A stretch of DNA of 64,000 nt from Streptomyces sp. NBC_00659 (GTDB lineage: Bacteria > Actinomycetota > Actinomycetes > Streptomycetales > Streptomycetaceae), in assembly GCF_036226925.1 (NCBI RefSeq), contig NZ_CP109031.1, positions 1,488,001-1,552,000 on the forward strand, given 5' to 3'. The notes below the pieces were generated by a model. That model saw nothing but the letters and a program-made list of their open reading frames with translations. It did not search any database and was not told the origin of the DNA. Made by a program: the position numbers and the translations under genes. This document shows, piece by piece, positions 15,468 through 31,497 of the stretch. Position 1 is the first letter of the stretch, and every line of letters begins with the position of its first letter.

Positions 15468-17306
15468 CTACCGCCCGTCGAGCGCCTTGTCGAGGGTGAG
15501 GGTCGCGTCGATGAGGGCGAGGTGGGTGAACGCCTGCGGGAAATTGCCGAGTTGGCGGCCCGTCAGGTCGACCTCCTCCGAGTACAGGCCCAGATGGTTG
15601 GCGTACCCCGTCATCTTCTCGTACACCAGTCGTGCCTGGTCCGTCCGCCCCGCCCGGACGAGGGCGTCGACGTACATGAACGTGCACAGCGAGAAGGTGC
15701 CCTCCGAGCCGCGCAGGCCGTCGGGCGACGCCTCCGGGTCGTAGCGGTAGACGAGGCTGTCGCTGACCAGTTTCCGCTCGATGGCATCCAGGCTCGAGGC
15801 CCAGATCGGGTCCTCGGGGCTGACGAACCCGACCGTGGACATGCGCAGCAGCGAGGAGTCCAGTACGTCGCTGCCGTAGTGCTGGACGAAGGCCTGCTGT
15901 TCCTCGCTCCATCCCTTGGCCATGACCTGGTCGTAGGCGGCGTCCCGCTCGGTCTGCCACCGTCCGTACGCGGACGGCCAGCCCTTCGCCTCGGCGAGGC
16001 GCAGGGCGCGGTCGAACGCCACCCATGACATGACCCGGCCGTAGGTGAAGTCCTGGCGGCCTCCGCGGGTCTCCCAGATCCCCTCCTCCGGCTGGTCCCA
16101 GTGGTCGGCCAGCCAGTCCAGGTTCTCCCGCATGGAGGTCCATCCCGCGTGCCCGATCTGGAATCCGCGCTGGTGCGCGAAGTACATGCTGTCCAGCGCC
16201 TCGCCGTAGATGTCCAGTTGGAGCTGCGTCGCGGCGCCGTTGCCGATCCGTACCGGTGCGGAGCCCGCATAGCCCTCCCAGTGACCGAGGATCTGCTCCT
16301 CCAGGTCGGACGAGCCGTCGACCTTGTACATGACGTTGAGCGGGCCCGTGGTCCCGCTCTCGCCGGCCCGCTCCTTGACCCGGTCGCTCAGCCAGGCGAT
16401 GAACGCCCGGGCCTCTTCGGTGAAGCCCAGCCCCAGCAGGGCGTACACGGAGAAGGAGGCGTCGCGGATCCAGGTGAAGCGGTAGTCCCAGTTGCGTTCG
16501 CCGCCCAGTTGCTCCGGGAGAGCCGTGGTCGGGGCGGCCACCAGGGCGCCGCTCGGTGCGAAGGTCATGAGCTTGAGCGTGATCGCGGAACGCTCCACCG
16601 TCTCGCGCCAGCGCCCGGTGTAGCGGGACTGCGCCAGCCAAGAGCGCCAGAACGCCACGGTCTGGTCGAAGAGCCGTTGGTACGCGTCCAGGCGGATCTC
16701 GGTCGGCGGCCCCTCGGCGCCCATCTCCAGCACCAGCCCGCGCTGTTGACCGGCCTGCAGCGTCACCGACAGGCGCAGGGCGCCGTCCTGGTCCGTGAGA
16801 ACGTCGAGGAGCCGCTCGTCCTCCGGTTCACGGATGGGGTGCATGGTGAGTTCGGTGCCGTCCTCCGCGGCGAAGACCGCTCCGTGCCCGGTGATGTGCG
16901 CCTCGTGCTTCGCGCGTCCGTAGTCGAACCGCGGGGCGATCTCCACCTCGAACGTCATGCTGCCGCGCACACAGCGGATCAGACGCACCAGACGGTGGCG
17001 GGAGGTGACCGTCGTACCGGTCACGGGCATGAAGTCGACCACCTCGCCGGCGCCCGCCTCGGTCATGAACCGTGTCACCAGGATCGCCGTGCCGGGCAGG
17101 TACAACTGCTTGGTCGCATGGGTCGGCTGCACCGGCCGGACCGTGCAGTGACCACCCTTCTCCTGGTCCAGCAGCGCCCCGAAGACACTGGGCGAGTCGA
17201 ACCGCGGGGAGCAGAACCAGTCGACCGTGCCCTCGGTGGTCACCAGCGCCGCGGTCTGCAGATCGCCGATGAGACCGTGGTTCTCGATCAGTGGATAGCC
17301 GTCCAT
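15468..17306 (-). CDS. Glycoside hydrolase family 15 protein (trehalase/glucoamylase-like)
   Basis: 612 residues from the ATG at 17306, after an AAAGGGG ribosome site. The N-terminus MDGYPLIENHGLIGD is the typical start of actinobacterial GH15 enzymes. GERNWDYRFTWIRDASFS (about residue 270) and PEEGIWETRGG (about residue 405) carry the substrate pocket and the likely general acid glutamate. LGNFPQAFTHLALI lies near the C-terminus, with a candidate base glutamate in YSEEVD just before. There is no signal peptide, so it is cytosolic. Characterised relatives hydrolyse trehalose or alpha-glucans. It starts 20 bases after the stop of the upstream NACHT gene and may be co-transcribed with it. Confidence 0.88.
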   Translation of the reverse strand: MDGYPLIENHGLIGDLQTAALVTTEGTVDWFCSPRFDSPSVFGALLDQEKGGHCTVRPVQPTHATKQLYLPGTAILVTRFMTEAGAGEVVDFMPVTGTTVTSRHRLVRLIRCVRGSMTFEVEIAPRFDYGRAKHEAHITGHGAVFAAEDGTELTMHPIREPEDERLLDVLTDQDGALRLSVTLQAGQQRGLVLEMGAEGPPTEIRLDAYQRLFDQTVAFWRSWLAQSRYTGRWRETVERSAITLKLMTFAPSGALVAAPTTALPEQLGGERNWDYRFTWIRDASFSVYALLGLGFTEEARAFIAWLSDRVKERAGESGTTGPLNVMYKVDGSSDLEEQILGHWEGYAGSAPVRIGNGAATQLQLDIYGEALDSMYFAHQRGFQIGHAGWTSMRENLDWLADHWDQPEEGIWETRGGRQDFTYGRVMSWVAFDRALRLAEAKGWPSAYGRWQTERDAAYDQVMAKGWSEEQQAFVQHYGSDVLDSSLLRMSTVGFVSPEDPIWASSLDAIERKLVSDSLVYRYDPEASPDGLRGSEGTFSLCTFMYVDALVRAGRTDQARLVYEKMTGYANHLGLYSEEVDLTGRQLGNFPQAFTHLALIDATLTLDKALDGR

Positions 17307-17326: not shown

Positions 17327-20300
17327 TCAAAGAAGGTGTTCGTCGTCGTCGGTGGCCTTGCGGTTCCGGTTGGCCATTTCCTCCCAGAAGGCGTGCAACT
17401 CCCTGACGGGGACGCTGACCCATGGCGCGGTGTGCCGGCTGACGGCCGGCAGATGCCAGCGGAAGCGGCTGTGCAGAAGTGCCTGTTGCTGCCGGCAGAA
17501 CAGCTCCGCCACCTCCGCCTGCGCGTTTCCCGCTTGAGGGGGATAGGGGCACAGACGGAACTCGCACGGGGACGTGCAGGTAGTGCGGGATTCGCCCTTC
17601 TCGGCCCGGCCGATACTGCGTTCGGGGTGGAGCAGACTGCGGTCGTGGGTGAGACAGTGCGGGAGGCCGGCCTTGTTCGAGAGCTTCAGACGTTCCTCGA
17701 CGTCGTCCGGGCTCCCGTTGCCCTCGGTGAGGTGGAGCAGGACCATGACGTCGGCGAGAAGGCGCTGCGCCCGAGGGTGCAGGCTGCTCCAGCCGACGGA
17801 CGGGGAGATCCACAGGTTGTGCTTGCGGTAGCGGTCCGGATCGGCCGGGGTGGAACCGACGCTGTCGCTGACTTCGTTCTCGTCGATCCAGATGAACCGC
17901 TCGGGGTGTCCCGTCTCCAGGGCCAGGGTCACCAGATCGCCGGCTTCGGCGATGAACGGGTGGAGGACCCTTTCGCCGTGGTGCTGGTACGCGGCGCCGA
18001 TGTGGGCCGGGGTCTTCTCGTGTGCGCTGCCGGCCATGGCGAGCCACCGGGTGACCGCCTTGATGGGCTCCACGGGGCCACCGGATGCCACGTCGTCGTC
18101 CTTCGTGAGGCTGCCGGCCGGTGGCGCGGAACGGCTCCGCCGGTTCGTCGCGCCGGACCCGGGGGTGCGTCCGATCGCGTCGGGAAGCTCCCACAGGCAC
18201 AGCGACTGAAGCAGACTCAGTTGCGCGTACCAGTAGCGACTACAGGTGAGCATCTTCTCCGCCTGCTCCACCAGGTAGGCCCGGGTCTCCTCGTAGGCCT
18301 CCGGGTGCCGTCTCCTGCGGTTCGCCGCGTTCTTGAAGCCCTGGGCCAGAGCGTTCTCCAGAGAGAGCGGCATGAGCGGACTCTGCTGTCCGGTCTGGGC
18401 GGTCAGGTTGCGCAACCAGAGACTCAGCCGCTCCTTGGTCTCGTCACGGTACTTCTCGGAGACGGACCCGACGGCCATGGGAACGAGCCAGGCCCGGAGG
18501 GTGAAGTGGCGCCACCATGTGGTCCGGCACTGCTCGTACTCCCTCACGATCCAGTCGTGCTCCCGCTGCCTCTTTTCCGCCGCCTCCGGGCCGGCGGCAG
18601 GGTCCGGATCTTCTTCGTTGAGCCAGGCGGTGTAGTCGCGGTCGCGCTTCTTCTTGGCGTCTCGGATCTTTCCCAGGTATTGGGATATGGGATCGGATCC
18701 GAGGGGGAATTCCGTGCGCAGTTCCTGGAAGGCCGCGTCTCCACCGGCGGCGATCTGATGGGCGATCGCGATCCGGACCGTATGAGAGGGCTCGTGCGTG
18801 CCGATCTGGAAGAGGTGCTTGTAGGGAAGAGTCGGGCGCGCGGGATCCTGTCCCGGACATCCCGAGAGGGGACGACTCGCCTTGCTGCGACGGTCCCGTT
18901 CCCGCAGTGCGGATCCGAAGTTCCGCACCAGCCTCAGTTTCGCACTCTCGATGGTCCGCTGATCGCCTCTGATATCCAGGCCCGCCCATTGTTCATCGAG
19001 TTCATGGGCCAGCTTGTCCTGTATCGGCACCGGATCCACACAGTCTATTTCCAGGGCTGCGGCATACAGGTCGAAGTACTTCGCGTCGTGCCGGGCCGCA
19101 GCGGCATTGCTGAGCAGCTCGGCCAGTTTCGGCGACGTTCCATGACGGTTCCGGACAAGAGAAGTGGTGCGCTGCACGGCGCCCGACCGGGAAGCGAGAG
19201 GGGCTGCCCGGTGACGTGAGAGCAGCACCAGAGCGATGAGGAGTTCCCGCGACGGACCCGGGCTGTGAAGCGCCGGTTCGACGACTGCGGCGATCTTGTC
19301 GTCCGGCATTTCCCTCAGCACGCGATAACCCATATACGCCTGGAGGATGCTGTGCGGGAACCGAACCTTGTTCTTGCGGCCGTACACCAGTCCGAGGAGT
19401 TGTCCATTGGCAGTGTGTCTCGCCAACTCGGTCCGGCATTCGTTGGGGTAGTCCAAGGTGTTGAGCCAGTGCGCCGACCCGCCGATCTTTCGGCACATCA
19501 CACCCCAGATCGCGTCACGTTGCGCCGGGGAAATGGCGAGGCGGGTTCCATACTGATGGGCTTCCGGCGATTCCTGCTGATCTCCCTGAGATTGCGACGC
19601 GCGGTTGCGAAGATCGTTCGCGTGCGCGCTGACGAAATCGTCGAACGTGACCTCGATACTGTCCTGCAGAAGTCCCAGGCAGGCCATGGCCGACACGACC
19701 CACATGGTCTCCCGGCGTTCCTCGTGGCCCATCACCAGATCGTCGAATATGCGACCGTCTTCAATGGCCTGACGATAGGTGTTGAGGAATCCGAGCCGGA
19801 GAGTGGAGCAGTCGTTGCTCCGGGTGTCCAGGCGATCCTTTTCGTCGCGGAGGGTGAGGTGATCCAGCAGCCCGCACTGCTGCAGCAGGCGGGCGATCCG
19901 CAGATAGATCGGTGATTCCACGACCTTGGCGGTCTCCACCACCCAGTCGAGGCGGCGCTCGTCCAGCTCGCCCGGTTCCCGTACCAGATATTCCAGGGCC
20001 GCTTCCTCGCTCAGCGGCTCCATGTCGGCGATGGCCGCCCGGGTGCCCTCCAGGGGCGTGTGCGGGCGCGAGGCGATGACCAGGGGCAGCTTCTGACGGT
20101 CCGCTCGCTCTATCGCCCGTCGGATGATGTTGTCGCGGTCCTCCTGGTACTTCTCGTCGAGAAGGGCCTCTTCCAGGCCGTCGGCGATGACGACGACCTT
20201 GCCGTCGAGTCTCAGCTGCCGCCATGTCTTGTCGATGTTGCTGCCGGCGAGCACTCCCTGGTCCGCTTCTTCCTGGAAGCGGCGCCGTGCCATTTCCTCG

Positions 20301-20989
20301 AAGTCGAGCTCACCGTCGCCCTTCATGTCGCGCAGACTTATGGGCACGGGAACGGCGGACTGCTGTGCCAGCATCCGGGTGAGTTCCACCAGTACGGCCG
20401 TTTTGCCGACGCCCACACCACCGACGAGCAGATAGGGCTTTCGGGTTTTCCGGTTGCGGAGTGTCTGCGCTATCACCTGGGACAGTTCGTGGCGCCCGAC
20501 GATCCGGTTGCCGAACGTCCCGGCCGTGGAGACCAGCTCGTGCGGACGCGTACGCGCCTTGTCGATGAGTGGCTTCTTGGTCTTGTGATACCAGTAGAGA
20601 AGGAAGAATGTCAGTATCAGGGAGCCGGTAAGGACCGGGCCCGCGATATGGTTCACGGCGTCGAACCAATCGGATCCCAGCACCTTATGGAACGGCGATT
20701 TTTCGTCCTTCACAAAATCATAAACAGCCGCTGTCACCCAAAGGAAAAGCAGCATCGTCCCGACGAGAGCGTACGCGCGCAGCAGGGGTCCGAGGGAGAA
20801 CATCCCGGGCCGCCAACTGCGTGCCGCGGCAATGCTCTTGTGAGCCTCCCTCTTCGTCCTGAACGTGCGCCATTCCTTGCGCGTCGCCCCTGAGAGCCGC
20901 GACCACCACCGTCTCGGGTACAACGTGTACCAGGGTGCGTTGTGCGGCCGTTCCTTGCCTTCCGGACGGCGGATCACCTTGGTGGACAT
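17327..20989 (-). CDS. Membrane-anchored NACHT-type STAND NTPase
   Basis: 1,220 residues from the ATG at 20989, preceded by a GGAGGG ribosome site. Two transmembrane helices sit at about residues 68-92 and 115-134, separated by a short loop. The P-loop NTPase follows: Walker A VGGVGVGKTA (189-198), Walker B VVVIADGLEEA (265-275) and a LVIASRP sensor (303-309), the pattern of NACHT domains. Roughly 850 residues of helical sequence follow, without clear repeats. Near the C-terminus is a cysteine group, TCTSPCEFRLCP. STAND NTPases are ligand-triggered oligomerising switches and several bacterial NACHT proteins defend against phage. No separate effector is fused, so the membrane helices or the unknown C-terminus could be output. 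Base composition is less GC-rich than in the neighbours, suggesting transfer. Confidence 0.8.
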   Translation of the reverse strand: MSTKVIRRPEGKERPHNAPWYTLYPRRWWSRLSGATRKEWRTFRTKREAHKSIAAARSWRPGMFSLGPLLRAYALVGTMLLFLWVTAAVYDFVKDEKSPFHKVLGSDWFDAVNHIAGPVLTGSLILTFFLLYWYHKTKKPLIDKARTRPHELVSTAGTFGNRIVGRHELSQVIAQTLRNRKTRKPYLLVGGVGVGKTAVLVELTRMLAQQSAVPVPISLRDMKGDGELDFEEMARRRFQEEADQGVLAGSNIDKTWRQLRLDGKVVVIADGLEEALLDEKYQEDRDNIIRRAIERADRQKLPLVIASRPHTPLEGTRAAIADMEPLSEEAALEYLVREPGELDERRLDWVVETAKVVESPIYLRIARLLQQCGLLDHLTLRDEKDRLDTRSNDCSTLRLGFLNTYRQAIEDGRIFDDLVMGHEERRETMWVVSAMACLGLLQDSIEVTFDDFVSAHANDLRNRASQSQGDQQESPEAHQYGTRLAISPAQRDAIWGVMCRKIGGSAHWLNTLDYPNECRTELARHTANGQLLGLVYGRKNKVRFPHSILQAYMGYRVLREMPDDKIAAVVEPALHSPGPSRELLIALVLLSRHRAAPLASRSGAVQRTTSLVRNRHGTSPKLAELLSNAAAARHDAKYFDLYAAALEIDCVDPVPIQDKLAHELDEQWAGLDIRGDQRTIESAKLRLVRNFGSALRERDRRSKASRPLSGCPGQDPARPTLPYKHLFQIGTHEPSHTVRIAIAHQIAAGGDAAFQELRTEFPLGSDPISQYLGKIRDAKKKRDRDYTAWLNEEDPDPAAGPEAAEKRQREHDWIVREYEQCRTTWWRHFTLRAWLVPMAVGSVSEKYRDETKERLSLWLRNLTAQTGQQSPLMPLSLENALAQGFKNAANRRRRHPEAYEETRAYLVEQAEKMLTCSRYWYAQLSLLQSLCLWELPDAIGRTPGSGATNRRSRSAPPAGSLTKDDDVASGGPVEPIKAVTRWLAMAGSAHEKTPAHIGAAYQHHGERVLHPFIAEAGDLVTLALETGHPERFIWIDENEVSDSVGSTPADPDRYRKHNLWISPSVGWSSLHPRAQRLLADVMVLLHLTEGNGSPDDVEERLKLSNKAGLPHCLTHDRSLLHPERSIGRAEKGESRTTCTSPCEFRLCPYPPQAGNAQAEVAELFCRQQQALLHSRFRWHLPAVSRHTAPWVSVPVRELHAFWEEMANRNRKATDDDEHLL

Positions 20990-21018
20990 GAGGACGTTCC
21001 CTCCGTGCTGCACTTCAT

Positions 21019-21968: not shown

Positions 21969-23897
21969 ATGTACGCGAAGTTTCCCAAAGGGGCGGCGAA
22001 CCGCACCGACCCCGGGGCGGCTGCCGAGGTTCTCTACGACGCCGTCGTCGTCGGTGGCGGGATCTCCGGCGCTCTTGTCGCCCTGCGGCTGAGCGAAGCC
22101 GGCAGGAGAGTGCTGCTGCTCGAAGCGGGCCCGGCCGAAGACCTCACCCTGAGGGGCTACGAGAGCTACCTCGACCGGTTCTACTCAGCCGTCGGCAAGG
22201 ACAACCAGGCCCCCTATCCGGCCGTCGCCAATGCCCCGATGCCACGCGGCACCGACGTACGGCGCATCACCCCGGGCGCGCCCGACGCCTCGGCCTACCT
22301 GGTCCAGAGCGGGCCCTTCGCCACCGACACCACCTATACGCGGGTCCTCGGCGGCACCACCATGCACTGGGAGGGCAAGGCGCTGCGGATGCTGCCCGAG
22401 GACTTCCGGATGCGGACGCTCTACGGCGAGGGGGCGGACTGGCCGCTCACCTACGAGGACCTCGCCCCCTTCTACAACGAGGCCGAACGCGAGATCGGCG
22501 TCTCCGCCGACGTGGAGGACCAGGCCTACCTCGGGATCGCCTTCGACAAGGACTACGTCTTCCCCATGAAAGGACTGCCCCTGTCCTACCTGGACCGGAC
22601 GGTCGCCAGGGACCTGGACGGGATGCCGGTCGAACTCGACGGGGAGCGGAGAGAGTTGCGGGTCCGTCCGTTCCCGCAGGGCCGCAACGGGATACCGAAC
22701 CCGGCCTACGACGGCGGGCAGGGGTATGTACCGCGAGGGGCGGTGAGCGCGTACCAGGTCGAGGTCGGCGAGCGGTGCCAGGGCAACAACAACTGCGTGC
22801 CCATCTGCCCGGTGCAGGCCAAGTACAACGCCGGCAAGACCCTGGCTCTGGCTCTCCAGAGCGGCCGGGTCGACCTGGTGGCCCAGGCGGTGGCCCACAA
22901 GGTGCACGTCGACGAGCAGACGCACCGGGTGACCGAGATCGAGTACCGCCGCTACGACCGGCCCGACAGTCCCGGCTTCACGACGATGAGAGCCCGCGGC
23001 AGGCTGTTCGTCCTGGCCGCCAACGCGGTGGAGAACCCCCGGCTGATGCTGGCCTCCGGTCTGCGTGGTTCGAGCGGCCTGATGGGGCGGAATTTCATGG
23101 ACCACGCCTACCTGCTCGCGTGGAGCCTGCTGCCGGAGGTGGCGGGCACCTTCCGCGGCACGATCTGCACGGGCGGCATCGCCGACCTGCGCGGGGGCCG
23201 CTTCCGCAGCCGTCAGGCGGCGTTCACCGTCGACATCCACAACGACGGCTGGGGCTGGGCCCGGGGCGCGCCGATGACCGACCTGATCGGTCTGGTGGAC
23301 TCCGGTGGCCGCTACGGCGAATCCCTCCGCCAGGGCCTGGTGGACCGGGTGTCCCGTCAGCTGCAGCTCGCGTTCATGGTCGAAGTCCCCGCCGACCCGA
23401 GCAACCGGGTCACCGTGAGCCCGGACTACACGGACAAGCTGGGCAACATGCGTCCCGTTCTCACCTACAACATCCCCGAGTACACGATGCGGGGGGTGGC
23501 GTACGCCCGGCAGCTGTCGAGGCGGATCTTCGCCCGGCTGGGGGCCGAGGACCATACCGCGTACGACCCGAACTTCTGGGGCTACGCGGTCCACGACGGC
23601 GAGGGGTACGAGATCCGCGGCGGCAACCACCTCGCCGGCACCCACGTGATGGGCCGCGAGCCGTCGACCTCGGTGGTCGACGCGGATCAGCGGTGCTGGG
23701 ATCACGAGAACCTCTACATGGTCGGCGGGGGAAGCATGCCCACCGTGGGCACCTCGAACGTGACGCTCACCCTCGCCGCCCTGTGCCTGCGCAGCGTCCG
23801 GGCCATGCTGGCCCAGCTCGACGCCGAGACCGCACCGATCAACCTGACCTTCGACCGGCGCCAGGCGGCGCCGACCTCCGGGGAGGCGGCCTCATGA
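21969..23897 (+). CDS. GMC-family FAD oxidoreductase
   Basis: 642 residues from ATG with GGAGGAG upstream. The FAD-binding motif VVVGGGISGALVALRLSEAG is at residues ~26-45. A cysteine cluster, CQGNNNCVPICPVQAKYN, sits near residue 270, as in gluconate/sorbitol-dehydrogenase and pyranose-oxidase-like GMC proteins. The C-terminal active-site pair is His559 (GTHVMG) and Asn597 (VGTSNVTLT). The expected role is FAD-dependent oxidation of a sugar or polyol hydroxyl. No Tat or Sec signal is visible, so it should act in the cytosol unless a partner exports it. Its stop overlaps the next start as ATGA, and a FAD-SLDH-type small subunit follows two genes later. Confidence 0.88.
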   Translation: MYAKFPKGAANRTDPGAAAEVLYDAVVVGGGISGALVALRLSEAGRRVLLLEAGPAEDLTLRGYESYLDRFYSAVGKDNQAPYPAVANAPMPRGTDVRRITPGAPDASAYLVQSGPFATDTTYTRVLGGTTMHWEGKALRMLPEDFRMRTLYGEGADWPLTYEDLAPFYNEAEREIGVSADVEDQAYLGIAFDKDYVFPMKGLPLSYLDRTVARDLDGMPVELDGERRELRVRPFPQGRNGIPNPAYDGGQGYVPRGAVSAYQVEVGERCQGNNNCVPICPVQAKYNAGKTLALALQSGRVDLVAQAVAHKVHVDEQTHRVTEIEYRRYDRPDSPGFTTMRARGRLFVLAANAVENPRLMLASGLRGSSGLMGRNFMDHAYLLAWSLLPEVAGTFRGTICTGGIADLRGGRFRSRQAAFTVDIHNDGWGWARGAPMTDLIGLVDSGGRYGESLRQGLVDRVSRQLQLAFMVEVPADPSNRVTVSPDYTDKLGNMRPVLTYNIPEYTMRGVAYARQLSRRIFARLGAEDHTAYDPNFWGYAVHDGEGYEIRGGNHLAGTHVMGREPSTSVVDADQRCWDHENLYMVGGGSMPTVGTSNVTLTLAALCLRSVRAMLAQLDAETAPINLTFDRRQAAPTSGEAAS

Positions 23898-25006
23898 TCG
23901 CGTCCACCATCGAGAACCGTGACGACCTGCTCAGCTATCTGAACGCGGCGATGTCGCTCGAGCACGCGACCATCCCGCCCTACCTGACCGCTTACTACTC
24001 CATACACTCCAGCACCAACTCCGACGCCGCCCACATCATCCGGGTGACCGCGGTGGAGGAGATGCTGCACCTGACCCTCGCCGCCAACGTCCTGAACGCC
24101 ATCGGCGGGAAGCCCGACCTGACCCGCCCCGGCTTCGTGCCGTCCTATCCGGCCTACCTGCCGGACGGGGAGGACGACTTCACCGTCGACCTGCGGCCCT
24201 TCTCCCCCGAGGCGGTGGAGACGTTCTGCAAGATCGAACGGCCGGGCAAGGCCCCCAGCGCCGACTCGCGGCTGGTGAGGTCACCGGAGCGCAAGATCCA
24301 TTTCCTGGTCTCCAGCCCCACGGCGGAGCAGATGCGCTTCTACAGCATCGGCGAGTTCTACGAGGAGATCGCCGAAGGGCTCGAGAAGGTGGCGGCCAAC
24401 GATCCCACGCTCTTCCGCGGGGACCCGGCCCGTCAGGTGGGGCCCGAGTCCTTCTACTCCGGCGGCGGAGAGGTGACCGTCGTCTCCGACCTGGAATCGG
24501 CGCAGCAGGCGCTCCGCTTCATCGCCGGCCAGGGCGAGGGCCTCGACTCCGGCATCTACGACGCGGAAGGGGAGCTGGCCCACTACTACCGGTTCCGGCA
24601 ACTGCAGCTCGGGCGCTACTACCAGGTGGGCGACCACCCCGACACGCCCACGGGGCCGTCGCTGAGCATCTCCTGGGACGACGTGTACAAGGTGAAGGTG
24701 AGCGTCCGGCTGGCCGACTACCCGCCGGGATCGGAACTCGCCCGTGTCGCCCGGGACTTCAACGCCGACTACGGGGCCTTTCTCGCCCTGCTCACGGAGG
24801 CGTTCAACGGGCGGCCTGACCTCTTGCAGGAGGGCGTCTGCGAGATGTTCCGCCTGCGCGACGGGTTCAACCGGCTGGTGTGCAACCCCCTGCCGGGCAG
24901 CGGCGGGCTGCACGCCGGTCCCACCTTCGAGATTCCGGCCGCGGTCGGACCCGGCCCGCAGGCCCTGCCCGGTGCCGGCGGGACAACCCGGACGGTGACG
25001 CGATGA
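23894..25006 (+). CDS. Ferritin-like protein with VioB-type domain
   Basis: 370 residues. The N-terminal half has LLSYLNAAMSLEHATIPPYL (about residues 12-31) and IRVTAVEEMLHLTLAANVL (about 50-68), the helix pair with Glu and ExxH metal ligands of the ferritin-like domain named after violacein VioB and rebeccamycin RebD. The second half (PTAEQMRFYSIGEFYEEI and HYYRFRQLQLG) is also typical. VioB/RebD dimerise imine intermediates from amino acids, but many stand-alone family members have unknown jobs and often lie beside GMC oxidoreductases, as here. It overlaps both neighbours by ATGA junctions, so it should be made in fixed ratio with them. Confidence 0.82.
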   Translation: MIASTIENRDDLLSYLNAAMSLEHATIPPYLTAYYSIHSSTNSDAAHIIRVTAVEEMLHLTLAANVLNAIGGKPDLTRPGFVPSYPAYLPDGEDDFTVDLRPFSPEAVETFCKIERPGKAPSADSRLVRSPERKIHFLVSSPTAEQMRFYSIGEFYEEIAEGLEKVAANDPTLFRGDPARQVGPESFYSGGGEVTVVSDLESAQQALRFIAGQGEGLDSGIYDAEGELAHYYRFRQLQLGRYYQVGDHPDTPTGPSLSISWDDVYKVKVSVRLADYPPGSELARVARDFNADYGAFLALLTEAFNGRPDLLQEGVCEMFRLRDGFNRLVCNPLPGSGGLHAGPTFEIPAAVGPGPQALPGAGGTTRTVTR

Positions 25007-25527
25007 CTGCCCCGTCGTTCGAGAAGTTCCTCTTCCTGTCGGTCGACCTCACCGCCTTCGATGAGACCGATCTGCTCGGCACCGGCATGGCCCACAGGTA
25101 CCTGGCGAAAGTGCGGGCCGCTTGCGGCGACGAGGTCGTCACCGCCCTTCTGGAGGCCCACAGGGCGGCCCGGGACGACGCGGCCGGCGACGCCGGAAGC
25201 CATGCCCGGAGCCCGCTCGACCGGGATCTGTTCGACCGGGCCCTGCGCCACCGGATCTTCGGCGACGAACGGCTCGGCCCGGTGGCCCGCAACGTGATCA
25301 AGCTCTGGTACGCCGGGACGTGGTACGCGCTGCCCGCCGAGTGGACCGACCGCTACGGGGCCCAGCCGGCGGCGGAGACCTCCACGGTCACCGCCGCGGC
25401 GTACCAGGAGGGGCTGCTGTGGCGGGCCATCGGGGCCAATCCCCCAGGTGCCAAGGCCCCCGGATACGGCTCCTGGGCTCAGCCGCCCCGCATCGCGGAC
25501 CGCTACCTGAAAGGGGCGACGAGATGA
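25003..25527 (+). CDS. FAD-SLDH-type small subunit of the flavoprotein dehydrogenase
   Basis: 174 residues from the ATG at 25003. FLFLSVDLTAFDETDLLGTG at the start and the C-terminal region with IKLWYAGTWYALP and AYQEGLLWRAIGANPPGAK match the small subunit family of membrane-bound sorbitol/fructose/gluconate dehydrogenases (FAD-SLDH, gluconate dehydrogenase subunit 3). Those subunits pair with a GMC flavoprotein. Here the flavoprotein is encoded two genes upstream, but no cytochrome c subunit is present, so the electron acceptor is unknown. No Tat signal is evident. It overlaps the preceding and following genes by ATGA. Confidence 0.8.
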   Translation: MTAPSFEKFLFLSVDLTAFDETDLLGTGMAHRYLAKVRAACGDEVVTALLEAHRAARDDAAGDAGSHARSPLDRDLFDRALRHRIFGDERLGPVARNVIKLWYAGTWYALPAEWTDRYGAQPAAETSTVTAAAYQEGLLWRAIGANPPGAKAPGYGSWAQPPRIADRYLKGATR

Positions 25528-26438
25528 CGGACACACTTCACCGTCTCAGCCCGGACAAGGTGAAGCTCGGCGTCTGCTGCACCCTGTGGTGGAACGACGA
25601 CTTTCCCGCCATCGACGCCGGCATCTCCTTCGGCCAGGCCGTGAGCGACATGGCGCTCGCCGGCTTCCAGGGCTGCAGCATCGGGCACAAGTACCCCTCG
25701 GACGCCGACGAGCTCAAGGCCGCCCTCGATCTCCGCGGTCTGAGTGTGTCCGAGCCCTGGACGAGCACGTACTTCACGATCGGCAGGATGCGGGAGAAGA
25801 CGGTCGCCGCCTTCGAGGAGACACTGGCCCATATCAAGGCTCTGGACGGGACCGAGCTGGTCGTGGCCGAGTTCGGCGCCTCGTCGCACCTGCTTCCCGT
25901 GGACGTGTTCGCCAACCGCCCCGTCTTCACCGACTCCCAGTGGGACGCCTTGACTTCGGGCCTGGACGAGCTCGGCAGGATCGCCGCCTCGGCCGGGCTG
26001 AAGCTCAGCTATCACCATCACATGGGCACCGGCGTCATGACCCGGGCCGACGTCGACCGGCTGATGGCCTCGACCGATCCGGAGCTGGTCCATCTGCTGC
26101 TCGACACCGGCCACATGGCCTTCGCCGGCGATGATCCGCTGGACCTGGCCCGGACCTACGCCGACCGCATCGGCCACGTCCACCTGAAGAGCGTCCGGCC
26201 CGAGGTCGTGAGCCTGGTGCGGGAGGAAGGCCTGTCGTTCCAGGAGGCCATCCAGCGCGGCGTCTTCACCGTGCCCGGAGACGGCGGGATCGACTTCCGG
26301 CCCATCCTCGAAGCGCTGGCCGCCGCCCACTACCAGGGGTGGCTGGTCGTGGAGGCGGAGCAGGATCCGAACAAGGCCGTGCCGCTGGAGTACGCCAAGA
26401 AGGCCCGTGCCTACCTCGCCGACATCCTGGGCTGGTGA
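25524..26438 (+). CDS. IolE-like xylose-isomerase-fold TIM-barrel protein
   Basis: 304 residues. KLGVCCTLWWNDDFP opens the barrel. The four metal-ligand positions of the fold can be picked out: Glu in LVVAEFGASS, Asp in LLLDTGHMAF, His in IGHVHLKSV and Glu in WLVVEAEQD. KSVRPEVVSLVREEGLSFQEAI is characteristic of myo-inosose-2 dehydratase (IolE) relatives. Such enzymes perform metal-dependent isomerisation, epimerisation or dehydration of keto-sugars and inososes. The rest of the iol pathway is absent, so another keto-sugar is more likely. Translation is coupled to the upstream subunit gene. Confidence 0.82.
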   Translation: MTDTLHRLSPDKVKLGVCCTLWWNDDFPAIDAGISFGQAVSDMALAGFQGCSIGHKYPSDADELKAALDLRGLSVSEPWTSTYFTIGRMREKTVAAFEETLAHIKALDGTELVVAEFGASSHLLPVDVFANRPVFTDSQWDALTSGLDELGRIAASAGLKLSYHHHMGTGVMTRADVDRLMASTDPELVHLLLDTGHMAFAGDDPLDLARTYADRIGHVHLKSVRPEVVSLVREEGLSFQEAIQRGVFTVPGDGGIDFRPILEALAAAHYQGWLVVEAEQDPNKAVPLEYAKKARAYLADILGW

Positions 26439-26440
26439 CC

Positions 26441-27436
26441 ATGAACGCGAAACTCGGACGAGACGTCTTCTTCAGCTTCTTCATGTTCACGGCTGATCTG
26501 CGGCCACAGGACACGGGGTACAGCCGGGTACTGATCGATCACCTGAAGGTCCTGACCGACATGGGCTACGACGGCTTCGACGTGCATATCGCTGCTCAGC
26601 CCACGAGTGTCGATCACAAGCTCGAGGTCGACCGTTACGCCGGCCTCAAGAAGGCGTTCGAGCGGGCAGGGCTGGGGGAGGTGAAGTTCACCACCAACGT
26701 CGGGACCACGCGCACCTTCGACCCGACCTCTCCCTACGAGGAACAGCGCGGGCAGGCCCTGTCCTACCTCAAGTCACGCGTCGACATCACACGCATCCTG
26801 GGCGGCGACTCGATCATGTCCGGGCCGTTCATCTACCCCTACGGGGTCTTTCCGGTCACGGACACCGATGAGCCGATCTGGAGCGACGCCCTGCAGGACT
26901 GGATGAAGCCGCGTTATGACGCGGCGCGTTCCGTCTTCGAAGAGCTGCTGGAGTACGCCGCGGCGCGCGAGGTGAGGCTCGCCGTCGAGCCCGTCAAGAG
27001 CTGGGAGACGCCACCGCCCAACATGGTCTCGGAGGTGCTGGACTTCCTCGAGGGCCTCGACCACCCGGGGGGTGGCGTGACGATCGACACGGCGCAGGTC
27101 GTGATGGAGAGCCAGGGGCCGTCGGTCCTCAAGGAGAACGTCGCGAGAGCGACACGGCAGGACCGGCTCTACTACGTCCACATCTCCGCACCCGACCGGG
27201 GAGCGGTGAAGGACAGCTGGGTCCCGTGGGACGTCCTCTCGCGCGAGATCGAGCCGGTGTACCGCGGGCCGTACCTGATCGAGGTGTTCAACGCGATTCC
27301 GCCCTTCGACAGCTCCATGCGCATGGCACGCCGGCGTTTCTGGCGGCCCGGCGAGGACGACCCGGTGCCCGGCAGGGACAGCGCCTACGACGTCGCGCGG
27401 GCCGCGTTGGAGGAGCTGCGAGAGAAGACCGCCTAA
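26441..27436 (+). CDS. Second xylose-isomerase-like TIM-barrel protein
   Basis: 331 residues from ATG, 2 bases after the previous stop. The barrel ligands appear as Glu in RLAVEPVKSW, Asp in GVTIDTAQV, His in YYVHISAPDRG and Glu in YLIEVFNAIP. DGFDVHIAAQP and KFTTNVGTTRTFDP are early-barrel motifs. It is only distantly similar to the preceding TIM barrel, so it is not a simple duplication. Family members include sugar epimerases and the catalytic subunits that cleave 3-keto-glycosides. Sitting beside a sugar-oxidising flavoprotein supports a keto-sugar substrate, but this is inference. Confidence 0.8.
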   Translation: MNAKLGRDVFFSFFMFTADLRPQDTGYSRVLIDHLKVLTDMGYDGFDVHIAAQPTSVDHKLEVDRYAGLKKAFERAGLGEVKFTTNVGTTRTFDPTSPYEEQRGQALSYLKSRVDITRILGGDSIMSGPFIYPYGVFPVTDTDEPIWSDALQDWMKPRYDAARSVFEELLEYAAAREVRLAVEPVKSWETPPPNMVSEVLDFLEGLDHPGGGVTIDTAQVVMESQGPSVLKENVARATRQDRLYYVHISAPDRGAVKDSWVPWDVLSREIEPVYRGPYLIEVFNAIPPFDSSMRMARRRFWRPGEDDPVPGRDSAYDVARAALEELREKTA

Positions 27437-27455
27437 TCAAGGAAAGGGGACTCCC

Positions 27456-28283
27456 GTGCCGGCTCAGGTGTCGGATCCCATCACCATGGTCGTGAAGCAG
27501 ACGGGCGACGTCCGTATTCACACCTTCGTCGCGTCCTTCACGGGCAGCAACATCGCGAACGCCACGCATGTCGTCGAGACCAGGAACCAGCTCGTCCTCG
27601 TCGACTCGCAGTTCCTCTCCCCCTACGCGAGAGCCTTCAGGGACTACGCGGACAGCCTGGGCAAGCCGATCGAAAGGCTGTACATCTCCCACCGGCACCC
27701 CGACCACTGGTTCGGCCTCGGGACCGCGTTCACCGACGTCACGGTCCACGCGCTGTCCGAGACCATGACGTTCATCCGCGATCATGGTGAGGACTCGCGA
27801 AGCGACCACTGGAAACTCGGTGACCTCGCCCCGGAGCGCATAGTCGTTCCCGAACAGGTCGCCGGTGCCGGCGAAGACAAGATCGACGGGGTCAGGTACG
27901 TCTTCGACCGGGTGACGGACACCGAGATCGACTACCACCTCACCATCAGGCTTCCTGATCTGGGCGTGTATTTCACTCAGGATCTGCTCTACAGCGGCAC
28001 CCATCTGTACCTGACGAAACACATGGACCACTGGATCCGGGTGCTGCGCGACATGCTGCTGTCGGACTACGAGTTGTTCCTGCCGGGCCACGGTCTCCCG
28101 GCCGACAAGAACGAAGTCGCCCGCAACATCGAGTACCTTTCCGCCGCTCGGCAGGCAATCGGTGACGGGCTGACAGGCGACGCCTTCAAGAGCTTCATGC
28201 TGCAGCGGTATCCGGAGCGCAAGTGCCCCGGGATCTTCGACATTTACCTGCCCCGACTGTTCGGCGGCGCGAGCGACTACTGA
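27456..28283 (+). CDS. Metallo-beta-lactamase-fold hydrolase
   Basis: 275 residues from GTG at 27456, with AAAGGGGAC upstream. ISHRHPDHWFGLG (about residues 77-89) is the HxHxDH zinc motif, and later ligands are likely in YFTQDLLYSGTH and FLPGHG. ETRNQLVLVDSQFL near the start is the usual first strand. The fold hydrolyses esters, thioesters, lactones or amides. Placed between the TIM barrels and the decarboxylase, a lactonase or thioesterase role in the same pathway is plausible but unproved. The GC content drops slightly from here to the end of the cluster. Confidence 0.83.
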   Translation: MPAQVSDPITMVVKQTGDVRIHTFVASFTGSNIANATHVVETRNQLVLVDSQFLSPYARAFRDYADSLGKPIERLYISHRHPDHWFGLGTAFTDVTVHALSETMTFIRDHGEDSRSDHWKLGDLAPERIVVPEQVAGAGEDKIDGVRYVFDRVTDTEIDYHLTIRLPDLGVYFTQDLLYSGTHLYLTKHMDHWIRVLRDMLLSDYELFLPGHGLPADKNEVARNIEYLSAARQAIGDGLTGDAFKSFMLQRYPERKCPGIFDIYLPRLFGGASDY

Positions 28284-28302
28284 CCACGGAGGTGCCTCGA
28301 CC

Positions 28303-29958
28303 ATGACCGAGAGCTGCACTGTAGGACAGTACTTGGTGGACCGGCTCCGCCAACTGGGGCTGGAGCACCTGTTCGCCATCGCGGGAGACTACTCGATCGA
28401 ATGGCTGAACCGGTACGTCGCGCCGAGCGGTACGAAAATCATCGAGGAAGTCAATGAGGTGAACGCCGGTTACGCGGCGGACGGATATGCGAGGCTGAGG
28501 GGAATCGGCGCACTCTGTGTCACCTACTCCGCAGGCGCGCTGTGCGCCGTGAACGCGGTCGCCGGCGCCTACGTCGAGAGGGTGCCACTCGTACTGATCA
28601 ACGGCACACCGAGCGTCAAGAAGACCATCACCTTCGAACAGACCGGCTTCAGCGCGCATCACTTCATCAGCGGACGGGAAACGGATCTCCAGTCGTTCGA
28701 GCACCTGACGGTGGCGGCCATACGGATCGACAATCCGGACCTCGCGCCGACGCTGATCGACTACGCACTGACCCGGTGCATCAGCGAACGGCGCCCGATC
28801 TACATCGAACTGCTCCAGGACATGGTCGACTTGGAGTGCGCGCCGCCGGAGGGCGTTCTGAAGCCGGTCAGGGTTCTGTCCGACGAGACCAGCCTGGAAC
28901 AGTCGGTCGCCCAGATCTGCGCACAGCTCGAGAACGCCGAGAATCCTCTCGTCTGGCTCGGCGTGGAGATCGACCGTCTCGGCCTTCAGGACAAGGCCAT
29001 GCGTCTGATCCAGCAGCTGAACGTCCCGTTCGTCACGGAACTTCTCAGCAAGGCCGTCCTCTCCGAAGACGACGCGCTGTTCGTCGGCGTGCTCGACGGC
29101 CAGGCGTCATCGAAGGTCGTGACGGATCTGGCCGACACCTCCGACTTCGTCCTGGCGCTCGGGGTGTGGCTGACGGACATCAACTCGTTGGGATGGGACC
29201 CGGACTACGACAAGACCGCGTTCGCGTCGTTCGACGCGGTCAAGTTCGGAACCTATTTCGGCGGGCAGGTCGCGCTGGAGCACCTGATCGACGGCATCCT
29301 GGCGGAGAAGATCGCGCCCAAAGAACGGAAACTGCCGGAAATCCCGGCTCGCAGCGCGCCGACCATGGAAAAGGCCGAGGTCATCACGTACCAGGGGTTC
29401 TACGACTACATCCAGCAGTACGTCGACAGGAACACCATCGTCGGTGCCGACGCGAGCATGAACTACTTCGGGAGCCTGCTGCTCGATGTGCCCAGCCCGG
29501 GAGGGTTCATCGTCCAGTCGTCCTACTCCTCGATCGGCTACAGCGCGCCGGCCGCGACGGGTATCTGCCTGGCGAAGGGTCCCGAGCAGAGGGTCATGGT
29601 CTTCTCGGGTGACGGCGGCTTCCAGATGACGGCCCAGTGCCTCTCGACCCAGACCCGGTTGGGGCTCGATCCGATCATCTTCGTCATCGACAACGGCGTC
29701 TACGCCGTGGAGCAGTGGCTCGCCGACGCGGCGGTGTTCCACTCCGACGAACCGTTCTACAAGCCCTGCGAGCTGCACCGGTGGAACTACAGCAGGCTGG
29801 CAGAGGTCTTCGGTTGCCGGGGCTGGGAGGTCGGCACGTACGGCGAGCTGGAGGATGCCGTGACGGATGCGCTGGGGAACTCGACCGGTCCGTCCATCGT
29901 CCAGGTACGCGTGCCGGAGAAGACGATCCCCGACAATGCGAACTGGAAGGCCCGGTAG
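28303..29958 (+). CDS. Thiamine-diphosphate-dependent decarboxylase, pyruvate/indolepyruvate decarboxylase type
   Basis: 551 residues from ATG with GGAGGTG upstream. The N-terminal domain has IAGDYSIEWLNRY and EEVNEVNAGYAADGYAR, which holds the cofactor-activating glutamate (about residue 50). The cofactor and magnesium motif starts at GDGGFQMTAQ (about residue 435) and ends at VIDNGVYAVEQ. Domain order and size fit 2-keto acid decarboxylases. The double-His motif seen in classical pyruvate decarboxylase is not obvious; SAHHFIS may take that place. It is the last gene of the run and is convergent with the PLP enzyme gene. Substrate probably a 2-keto acid formed in the pathway. Confidence 0.85.
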   Translation: MTESCTVGQYLVDRLRQLGLEHLFAIAGDYSIEWLNRYVAPSGTKIIEEVNEVNAGYAADGYARLRGIGALCVTYSAGALCAVNAVAGAYVERVPLVLINGTPSVKKTITFEQTGFSAHHFISGRETDLQSFEHLTVAAIRIDNPDLAPTLIDYALTRCISERRPIYIELLQDMVDLECAPPEGVLKPVRVLSDETSLEQSVAQICAQLENAENPLVWLGVEIDRLGLQDKAMRLIQQLNVPFVTELLSKAVLSEDDALFVGVLDGQASSKVVTDLADTSDFVLALGVWLTDINSLGWDPDYDKTAFASFDAVKFGTYFGGQVALEHLIDGILAEKIAPKERKLPEIPARSAPTMEKAEVITYQGFYDYIQQYVDRNTIVGADASMNYFGSLLLDVPSPGGFIVQSSYSSIGYSAPAATGICLAKGPEQRVMVFSGDGGFQMTAQCLSTQTRLGLDPIIFVIDNGVYAVEQWLADAAVFHSDEPFYKPCELHRWNYSRLAEVFGCRGWEVGTYGELEDAVTDALGNSTGPSIVQVRVPEKTIPDNANWKAR

Positions 29959-30032: not shown

Positions 30033-31157
30033 TCAGGCCGGCCAGACGCCCGTCTCCAGCAGGGAGTTGATCGCCGTCATGTACGGCGCGATGTCCAGGC
30101 CCTGTTCGGCCAGCCACGCGTCCGAGTAGTACTTGTCGAGATAGCGGTCGCCGTGGTCGCACAGCAGCGTGACGACGCTTCCGTTGCGCCCCTCGGCCAC
30201 CATCTCGGCGACGATCTTCAGGGCGCTCCACAGGCCGGTGCCGGTCGAGCCGCCCGCCTTGCGGCCGATGACCTGCTCCAGGGCGCGGACGGCGGCGACG
30301 CTCGCCGCGTCCGGCACCTTCATCATGCGGTCGATCGCCCCGGGCACGAAGCTCGGCTCGACGCGCGGTCTGCCGATGCCCTCGATGCGCGAGCCGCGGT
30401 CGCAGGTGACGTCCGGATCGCCGGTGGTCCAGCCCTCGAAGAAACAGGAGTTGTCCGGGTCGGCGACACAGATGCGGGTGTCCGCCTGCATGTAGTGGAC
30501 GTAGCGGGCGAGGGTCGCCGAGGTGCCGCCGGTGCCGGCCGTGGCGACGATCCAGGCGGGTTCCGGGAATCGCTCGAGGGCCAGTTGGCGGAAAATGGAT
30601 TCGGCGATGTTGTTGTTCCCGCGCCAGTCTGTGGCCCTTTCCGCATAGGTGAACTGGTCCATGTAGTGGCCGCCGGTCTCGGCCGCGAGGGCGACGGACT
30701 CCGCGTAGATCTTGCGCGAGTCGTCCACGAAGTGGCACTGCCCGCCGTGGAATTCGATCAGCCGGCACTTCTCGGCACTCGTCGTGCGCGGCATGACCGC
30801 GATGAAGGGCACACCGACGAGGCCCGCGAAATAGGCCTCGGACACGGCTGTCGAGCCGCTGGACGCCTCGATCACCGGGCGGCCGGGCCGGATCCAGCCG
30901 TTGCACAGGCCGTACAGGAAGAGCGAGCGGGCCAGCCGGTGCTTGAGGCTGCCCGTGGGGTGGGTCGACTCGTCCTTCAGATACAGGTCGACACCCCACT
31001 CCTCGGGGAGCGGGAAGCGCAGCAGATGAGTGTCCGCCGAGCGATTCGCATCCGCCTGGACTTTGCGCACGGCCTCTTTGAGCCAGCTCCGGTACTCCGG
31101 GTCGCTGCGGTCGACATCGAGGGTCTCACCGGTCCGGATCGGCTGGGGAGTGCTCAC
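30033..31157 (-). CDS. PLP-dependent cysteine synthase/desulfhydrase family enzyme
   Basis: 374 residues from the GTG at 31157, preceded by AGGAG. The PLP lysine is in [11 protein letters not shown] (Lys72), the substrate loop in [13 protein letters not shown] (about residue 100) and a phosphate-binding loop in [11 protein letters not shown]. The family covers cysteine synthases and Cds1-type L-cysteine desulfhydrases that release hydrogen sulfide. Sequence features such as [12 protein letters not shown] and [10 protein letters not shown] are closer to the Cds1 group. It lies on the opposite strand to the flavoprotein cluster and is probably separate from it. Confidence 0.82.
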
Positions 31158-31497
31158 GGGAAGGCTCCTAACGCGTGGCGCCGACACCGCTTCGACTGGT
31201 CGGACACCTCGATCATAAGCACCTTCCGTACGCCCCTCACCTGCATAAACACACCTTTGAGCGGCCCAAAGCCGTCCCTGGGGGGACGCCGGGAATCCGC
31301 ATCCGGGGATCAGGGAATCCCGCTCCAGGGGGGCGCATCCCGGCCTTTGCTCCCGTCACCGCCACCACCTCGCCATACGCACTGGTGCTCGGCGCGACCT
31401 GCGGGCAGACTGCACCGCGCGGGGCGGTCGCCCCCGACGTGGATGCACACTGGGTCACGACAGGGCACAGCCGGAGCGCACAAGGGGGCGGAGCATC
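31158..31497. other. Divergent promoter region of ~340 bases
   Basis: No gene is seen. For the leftward PLP enzyme gene, TATGAT on the minus strand at 31217-31212 is a plausible -10, but the -35 is poor. A region of G/C runs at 31275-31345 can fold imperfectly. The rightward hypothetical gene has a good ribosome site (GGGGCGGAG) at the end of this stretch. Confidence 0.4.

Follow-up and report, generated by a model that had tools for sequence, protein, structure and literature searches.

A conserved seven-gene module in Streptomyces and other bacteria with a candidate pathway for oxidising and decarboxylating a glucose-like sugar

What do a flavoprotein, a ferritin-like protein, a small subunit, two TIM barrels, a hydrolase and a decarboxylase do together when their genes are packed nearly end to end? 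This question is raised by a cluster of Streptomyces sp. NBC_00659, which we analyzed within a window of 64,000 nucleotides – the whole stretch of DNA considered here, corresponding to positions 1,488,001–1,552,000 of a one-contig genome of 9.66 Mb. The seven genes, designated A to G, are co-directional on the + strand at window positions 21969–29958:

21969..23897, + strand: A, GMC flavoprotein of the flavin adenine dinucleotide (FAD)-dependent glucose dehydrogenase (FAD-GDH)/fructose dehydrogenase (FDH) large-subunit type (Pfam/NCBIfam, structure-sequence similarity, residue alignment)
23894..25006, + strand: B, ferritin-like PF12902 protein with predicted diiron-type ligands (Pfam, alignment)
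25003..25527, + strand: C, small subunit with a predicted FDH/GDH small (hitchhiker) subunit fold
25524..26438, + strand: D, IolE-type AP_endonuc_2 barrel, predicted keto-sugar dehydratase (Pfam/NCBIfam)
26441..27436, + strand: E, AP_endonuc_2 barrel near 2qw5, predicted isomerase (Pfam, structure match)
27456..28283, + strand: F, metallo-beta-lactamase-fold hydrolase, predicted lactonase (Pfam, HxHxDH motif)
28303..29958, + strand: G, pyruvate/indolepyruvate-decarboxylase-type thiamine diphosphate (ThDP) enzyme (Pfam/NCBIfam, catalytic residues)

A/B, B/C and C/D are each joined by an ATGA overlap, 2 bases lie between D and E, and spacings of 19 bases separate E from F and F from G. A preliminary description made from the letters of the window had reported these seven genes, three overlaps and short gaps, all of which were borne out. 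It had also seen no cytochrome, permease or regulator in the cluster, and our Pfam and NCBIfam searches likewise found none among the seven genes. The same searches confirmed its family names apart from that of C, which has no family match and is assigned by fold prediction.

Every enzyme of the module belongs to a known fold or family. Our preferred reading, to which we give a probability of roughly 0.38, is that the seven genes, a conserved module, would serve one cytosolic pathway in which a glucose-like sugar is oxidised and afterwards undergoes dehydration, rearrangement and decarboxylation. The identities of the parts rest on sequence or predicted fold, and from them we infer the complex, the electron path, the oxidised carbon and the later steps. 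The preliminary description had suggested a route for the oxidation and breakdown of a sugar, cyclitol or glycoside; its outline survives in that the cluster is conserved, pathway-like and without a standard iol or glycoside match, while its pyranose-oxidase and VioB components are corrected below. No title describing the gene set appeared among the matches listed in a search of open-licence PubMed Central papers, which is weak evidence of absence.

A profile built from 14 B sequences identified 71 loci in GTDB genomes, most of them retrieved with 10 kb per side and their genes called by a codon-usage script (which missed B in locus L063). At the thresholds used, A and B occur together in 53 of the 71; the 18 loci without A include L057, one of several cut contigs, which ends just before B, and L106 and L107, whose weak GMC matches (24–25%) fall under the threshold. 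The 53 loci having both A and B all hold C as well; 52 hold D, 43 hold E, F and G are each found in 32, and the full complement of seven, in whatever order, is present in 31. In 23 of the 71 loci the genes stand exactly in the order A-B-C-D-E-F-G. This recurrence rules out a strain-specific or chance gene order and disproves uniqueness to the strain, the point on which the preliminary description had called for a conservation search. Alternative arrangements are D-E-F-G-A-B-C (four loci), E-F-G-D-A-B-C (one locus) and, in Aquimarina, a divergent g-f-e/A-B-C-D.

Loci with A and B are found in phyla and classes including Actinomycetota, Alphaproteobacteria and Bacteroidota. Complete sets occur in Streptomyces, Kitasatospora, Lentzea, Saccharothrix, Actinoplanes, Sinomonas, Promicromonospora, Rhizobium, Neorhizobium, Jiella, Aquimarina and others, and sets that lack F and G and carry a second flavoprotein and small subunit (A' and C') occur in Singulisphaera, Azospirillum, a Polyangiaceae metagenome-assembled genome (MAG), a Nitrospira MAG and others. 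Among 199 genomes of the same genus, E (E-value ≤1e-30) is present in 8, B (≥50% identity) in 9 and both in 7 (Fisher 1.3e-10, or 2.5e-9 leaving out the window's own genome); the identity cut for B was picked after the hits were seen, 64 of the 199 genomes hold some B relative at E ≤1e-3, and a 50% match across part of B only (G105) was scored as below 50%. A sample of 296 genomes from the class has two with E, one of them the window's own; these are also the two with F, and both have B, which reaches E ≤1e-40 in nine genomes. The module is thus rare, yet its genes travel together.

We next consider the proposed oxidase. A is similar along its full length to FAD glucose dehydrogenase (5e-109) and fructose dehydrogenase (6.7e-94), and Cys270, Cys276 and Cys280 (Cx5Cx3C) are kept in 68 of 68 aligned rows, from which two GMC rows below 40% identity were excluded. 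According to PMC6719666, the [3Fe-4S] ligands of a solved FAD-GDH are Cys212, Cys218 and Cys222, and His105 contacts FAD. The three cysteines of A match those ligands, and His133 of A matches that histidine. We take His559 and Asn597 to be the active-site pair. These features identify A, at the level of sequence, as a GDH/FDH-type flavoprotein with a [3Fe-4S] motif. The pyranose-oxidase-type reading in the preliminary description is rejected, as TIGR02462 gives 51.9 bits against a cut-off of 544.9 and the best stretch covers only the C-terminal 65 residues.

C has no Pfam or NCBIfam match, and a profile search of solved structures gave one chance-level match only. Its predicted fold is that of the small (gamma, or hitchhiker) subunit of the FDH/GDH family; the FAD-SLDH small subunit of the preliminary description therefore agrees with the modelled fold and finds no counterpart among sequence families. 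Judged by its N-terminal sequence, the C protein of the window has no twin arginine within residues 1–35 and no stretch of strong hydrophobicity at its N terminus, and an RR pair falls within the N-terminal 35 residues in 5 of 63 C rows. No multihaem or trihaem cytochrome c gene was found near the module across the 53 loci, where just two called genes carry one CxxCH each.

B, which matches PF12902 (218 bits), is the likely iron-based electron partner of A. Its predicted ferritin-type diiron ligand set, with ExxH pairs and a bridging Glu, is nearly invariant (Glu23 72/73, Glu56 73/73, His59 73/73, Glu227 72/73, His230 73/73; the sixth ligand is variable), and Glu23, Glu56 and His59 align to bacterioferritin 1nf4. 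The preliminary description had called B VioB-like with a ferritin fold: the ferritin-like part holds, and a VioB-type function is rejected by a TIGR04492 score of 18 bits against a cut-off of 1250. B and C are fused in 17 of 120 listed relatives, Sorangium included, and share one frame in Jiella flava (L074). Because it is fused in these relatives to C, whose known counterpart grips the large subunit beside the cluster, B likely belongs to the A/C complex. We propose that A, B and C form one complex in which electrons would leave FAD through the [3Fe-4S] cluster, reach the diiron site in B and end on O2, replacing the usual cytochrome c subunit.

A substrate is suggested by the genomic surroundings, for which neighbour families were matched to Pfam through one to three representatives each. 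The genes flanking the module in the window are:

15468..17306, - strand: alpha-glucosidase/trehalase-type gene of glycoside hydrolase family 15 (TREH_N + GH15), second of the upstream divergent pair (Pfam)
17327..21013, - strand: 1228-amino-acid protein, encoded between A and the GH15 gene, that matches NACHT below threshold
30033..31187, - strand: L-cysteine desulfhydrase Cds1-type pyridoxal phosphate (PLP) gene facing G (NCBIfam, 601.8 bits against a cut-off of 600)

A GH15, GH63-like, GH133-like or GH13-type gene accompanies 50 of the 53 loci with A and B and none of the 18 without A (Fisher 4e-14). The three exceptions are L072, L075 and L078, and in L075 the gene-calling script gives a c7-type GH15 gene for which there is no tblastn hit. 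GH15-type genes alone lie near the module in 40 of the 53 loci. The commonest neighbour family, c7, is a GH15 protein (105.6 bits, L044 copy) found in 33 loci and directly before A in 26; no match to it was found in the window genome by a search that lacked a positive control. The TREH_N + GH15 type seen in the window adjoins the module in six other loci (L039, L040, L041, L043, L054, L090). Where the preliminary description saw nothing that would name the substrate, these glycosidases suggest glucose from alpha-glucans.

A second clue comes from 5 of the 53 loci (L071, L077, L079, L080 and L082; 148 bits in L077), which encode an aldos-2-ulose dehydratase (AUDH) propeller protein, PF22301; the substrates of such enzymes are 2-keto sugars. 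No AUDH domain was found among ten window proteins scanned.

These clues lead to a specific version of the pathway, in which the neighbouring glycosidases would free glucose from alpha-glucan and A would oxidise it at C2, on its FAD, to glucosone. IolE acts on scyllo-inosose, which the pyranose form of glucosone resembles, so D likely takes water from glucosone to give a 4-deoxy-2,3-dicarbonyl sugar – the kind of dehydration that aldos-2-ulose dehydratase performs in fungi. E would probably form a 2-hydroxy-3-oxo lactone by moving the C1 hydride to C2, F would open this lactone, and G would probably remove CO2 from the oxo-acid so formed, leaving a deoxy sugar of five carbons. That all of this is so – a hitherto undescribed cytosolic sugar oxidase running from FAD through [3Fe-4S] to an O2-reducing diiron site and feeding the first glucosone pathway of bacteria, which several phyla would share and which would lead from alpha-glucan by way of glucosone and a 4-deoxy-2,3-dicarbonyl to a decarboxylated C5 sugar – we regard as tentative and, taken whole, rather doubtful.

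As for the later enzymes, E is close to the solved barrel 2qw5, for which the structure title gives no function, and distantly resembles ketose 3-epimerases. In F the HxHxDH motif (His79, His81, Asp83, His84) is intact in 33 of 34 rows, the remaining row being gapped, and two relatives 69–73% identical to F (P0122 and P0124, one from Tepidisphaeraceae) are fused to an E-like barrel (24% identical to E). G keeps D29, E52, H119, H120 and E470 in 33 of 33 rows, which we take to be the pyruvate decarboxylase (PDC) catalytic set (D27, E50, H113, H114 and E473 in ZmPDC), and it falls under the NCBIfam cut-offs for indolepyruvate/phenylpyruvate decarboxylases (244 against 554.5 bits and 243 against 946 bits).

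Acetolactate decarboxylase genes occur in four loci and are joined to or overlap a TIM-barrel gene in three of them. In Schlesneria L085, where F and G were not found at the locus, the enzyme is fused to an E-like barrel (194.7 bits); in Nocardioides L069 and L073 its gene and a barrel gene next to D overlap (208.6 bits, L069); and L070 carries it as well as F and G. The presence of two unrelated decarboxylases in the same context, though no strict swap, supports a decarboxylation step in the predicted pathway.

The position of the oxidised carbon is where the strongest rival departs from oxidation at C2. Glucoside 3-dehydrogenases oxidise C3, and paired barrels are typical of 3-keto-glucoside pathways; A-B-C might accordingly oxidise C3 of glucose or a glucoside, with the two AP_endonuc_2 barrels eliminating or epimerising the 3-keto sugar and F and G processing the fragment. 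The GH15 neighbours fit glucosides, and D weakly matches a 3-keto-D-glucoside 4-epimerase (6wn6, E 4.5e-6) and a 2-hydroxy-3-keto-glucal hydratase (8ro4, E 2.5e-5). D is, however, far closer to IolE (TIGR04379, 350 bits against a cut-off of 290; structure 3cny, E 1.2e-75), AUDH in five loci indicates a 2-keto sugar, and to our knowledge no decarboxylase belongs to 3-keto-glucoside pathways. We consider oxidation at C3 unlikely, if deserving of serious attention.

The AUDH relatives can also be read as a sign that the module serves the synthesis of a small metabolite of the pyranone type, or of an antibiotic, rather than catabolism, as in fungi that form cortalcerone from glucosone (formation from glucose by pyranose 2-oxidase and AUDH is named in a title cited in PMC11650716). 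This proposal overlaps with our preferred one and differs from it in purpose. The rarity of E in the genus (8/199) would suit a specialised product, but a terminal decarboxylase and hydrolase suggest breakdown, and spread over several phyla in the company of glycosidases is unusual for a single specialised metabolite; we judge it improbable.

A variant inositol catabolism, in which A-B-C would make an inosose, D would dehydrate it as IolE does and E, F and G would replace IolD and IolB, has a slimmer chance still. D alone among three genome matches exceeds the IolE cut-off, as this idea would have it. A separate iol locus nevertheless lies at 3.706–3.712 Mb (iolD 869 bits, iolB 273 bits, an IolE-like gene 132 bits), whereas the module is at 1.51 Mb, and because the genome keeps these genes together elsewhere, inositol catabolism is disfavoured and D is unlikely to be the inositol enzyme. 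Among the seven genes there is no IolB and no above-cut-off IolD (G scores 84.5 bits against 715), and the surroundings in other phyla hold alpha-glucosidases and AUDH.

IolE chemistry requires a ketone next to the abstracted proton, and acetolactate decarboxylase and AUDH neighbours are ill-suited to a 2-keto-3-deoxy acid. Both points count against the least probable alternative – oxidation of glucose at C1 to gluconolactone, as in the Burkholderia cepacia enzyme BcGDH, followed by opening by F and conversion of gluconate by D and G, via a 2-keto-3-deoxy acid, to 2-deoxyribose-like products – even though FAD-GDH, the nearest match of A, oxidises glucose at its first hydroxyl (PMC6719666), and F would serve as the lactonase.

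Several further gene associations were observed around the module and its relatives. A C'/A' pair lies directly before A-B-C in nine loci (L062, L063, L064, L065, L067, L076, L078, L081 and L083), with A' about 45–49% identical to A; two flavoproteins may share one ferritin-like partner in this arrangement, and L064 has two ferritin-like genes. The same nine loci, all modules without F and G, carry the gene c12, which has no Pfam match (L065 copy) and whose predicted structure resembles nitrobindin (Foldseek probability 1.00); it names no pathway step. In L093–L103, remoter ferritin-like relatives adjoin a conserved protein of about 630 amino acids, c9, with no Pfam match (L094 copy), which suggests that PF12902 proteins pair with further uncharacterised enzymes. 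A conserved 102-amino-acid gene, c10, directly follows G in L042, L044–L048, L058, L061 and L087; two copies gave no Pfam match, and we presume it to be an EthD-type protein.

In Promicromonospora, D-A-B-C lies between genes for a TMEM175-type channel and for a major intrinsic protein (aquaporin/glycerol channel) (L090:6422-7132 and L090:11578-12426), with relatives in L070. In Methylovulum, a DyP-type peroxidase gene and a galactose/glyoxal-oxidase-like gene follow the module and precede a GH15 gene (L086:14421-17855). Relatives of the 1228-amino-acid protein of the window lie near the module in five more Streptomyces loci (L039, L040, L041, L043 and L054). The PLP gene facing G was considered as an eighth member and rejected, being unlabelled at all other fetched loci and scoring only just above its cut-off.

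FAD-GDH has been studied as a glucose-sensor enzyme (PMC6719666). If our preferred reading is true, the module would add a soluble, cytochrome-free electron path to this widely used enzyme family. It would also give roles to PF12902 ferritin-like proteins beyond violacein synthesis, to IolE homologues beyond iol loci and to the 2qw5 barrel family, and offer a concrete proposal for bacterial use of oxidised glucose from alpha-glucans.

Each of the known systems nearest to the module shares part of its design. BcGDH and the Gluconobacter FDH complexes resemble it in the similarity of A, the Cx5Cx3C motif, the FAD-contacting histidine and the predicted fold of the small subunit. They differ in that a twin-arginine translocation (TAT) export signal on the small subunit and a trihaem cytochrome c subunit are features of the known complex; here no export signal was seen on the C protein of the window, no trihaem cytochrome gene was found nearby, and a ferritin-like diiron-type protein is present. 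The violacein enzyme VioB (iminophenyl-pyruvate dimer synthase) shares a ferritin-like domain with B, through a weak match across 107 residues, whereas B has 370 amino acids and the VioB model 1003 positions. myo-Inositol catabolism likewise has a ThDP enzyme after its IolE step, and D passes the IolE cut-off, but G is of the PDC type, and the genome has its own iol locus elsewhere. In 3-keto-glucoside pathways with AP_endonuc_2 barrels, as in the module, oxidation is followed by TIM-barrel elimination or isomerisation; they differ in the weak similarity of D and in the decarboxylase of the module. Compared with the fungal pyranose oxidase/AUDH route to cortalcerone, the module has another oxidase type, an IolE-type dehydratase and an extra isomerase, hydrolase and decarboxylase, but the two are alike in the predicted C2 oxidation of glucose followed by dehydration, and AUDH propeller relatives neighbour the module at 5 of the 53 loci.

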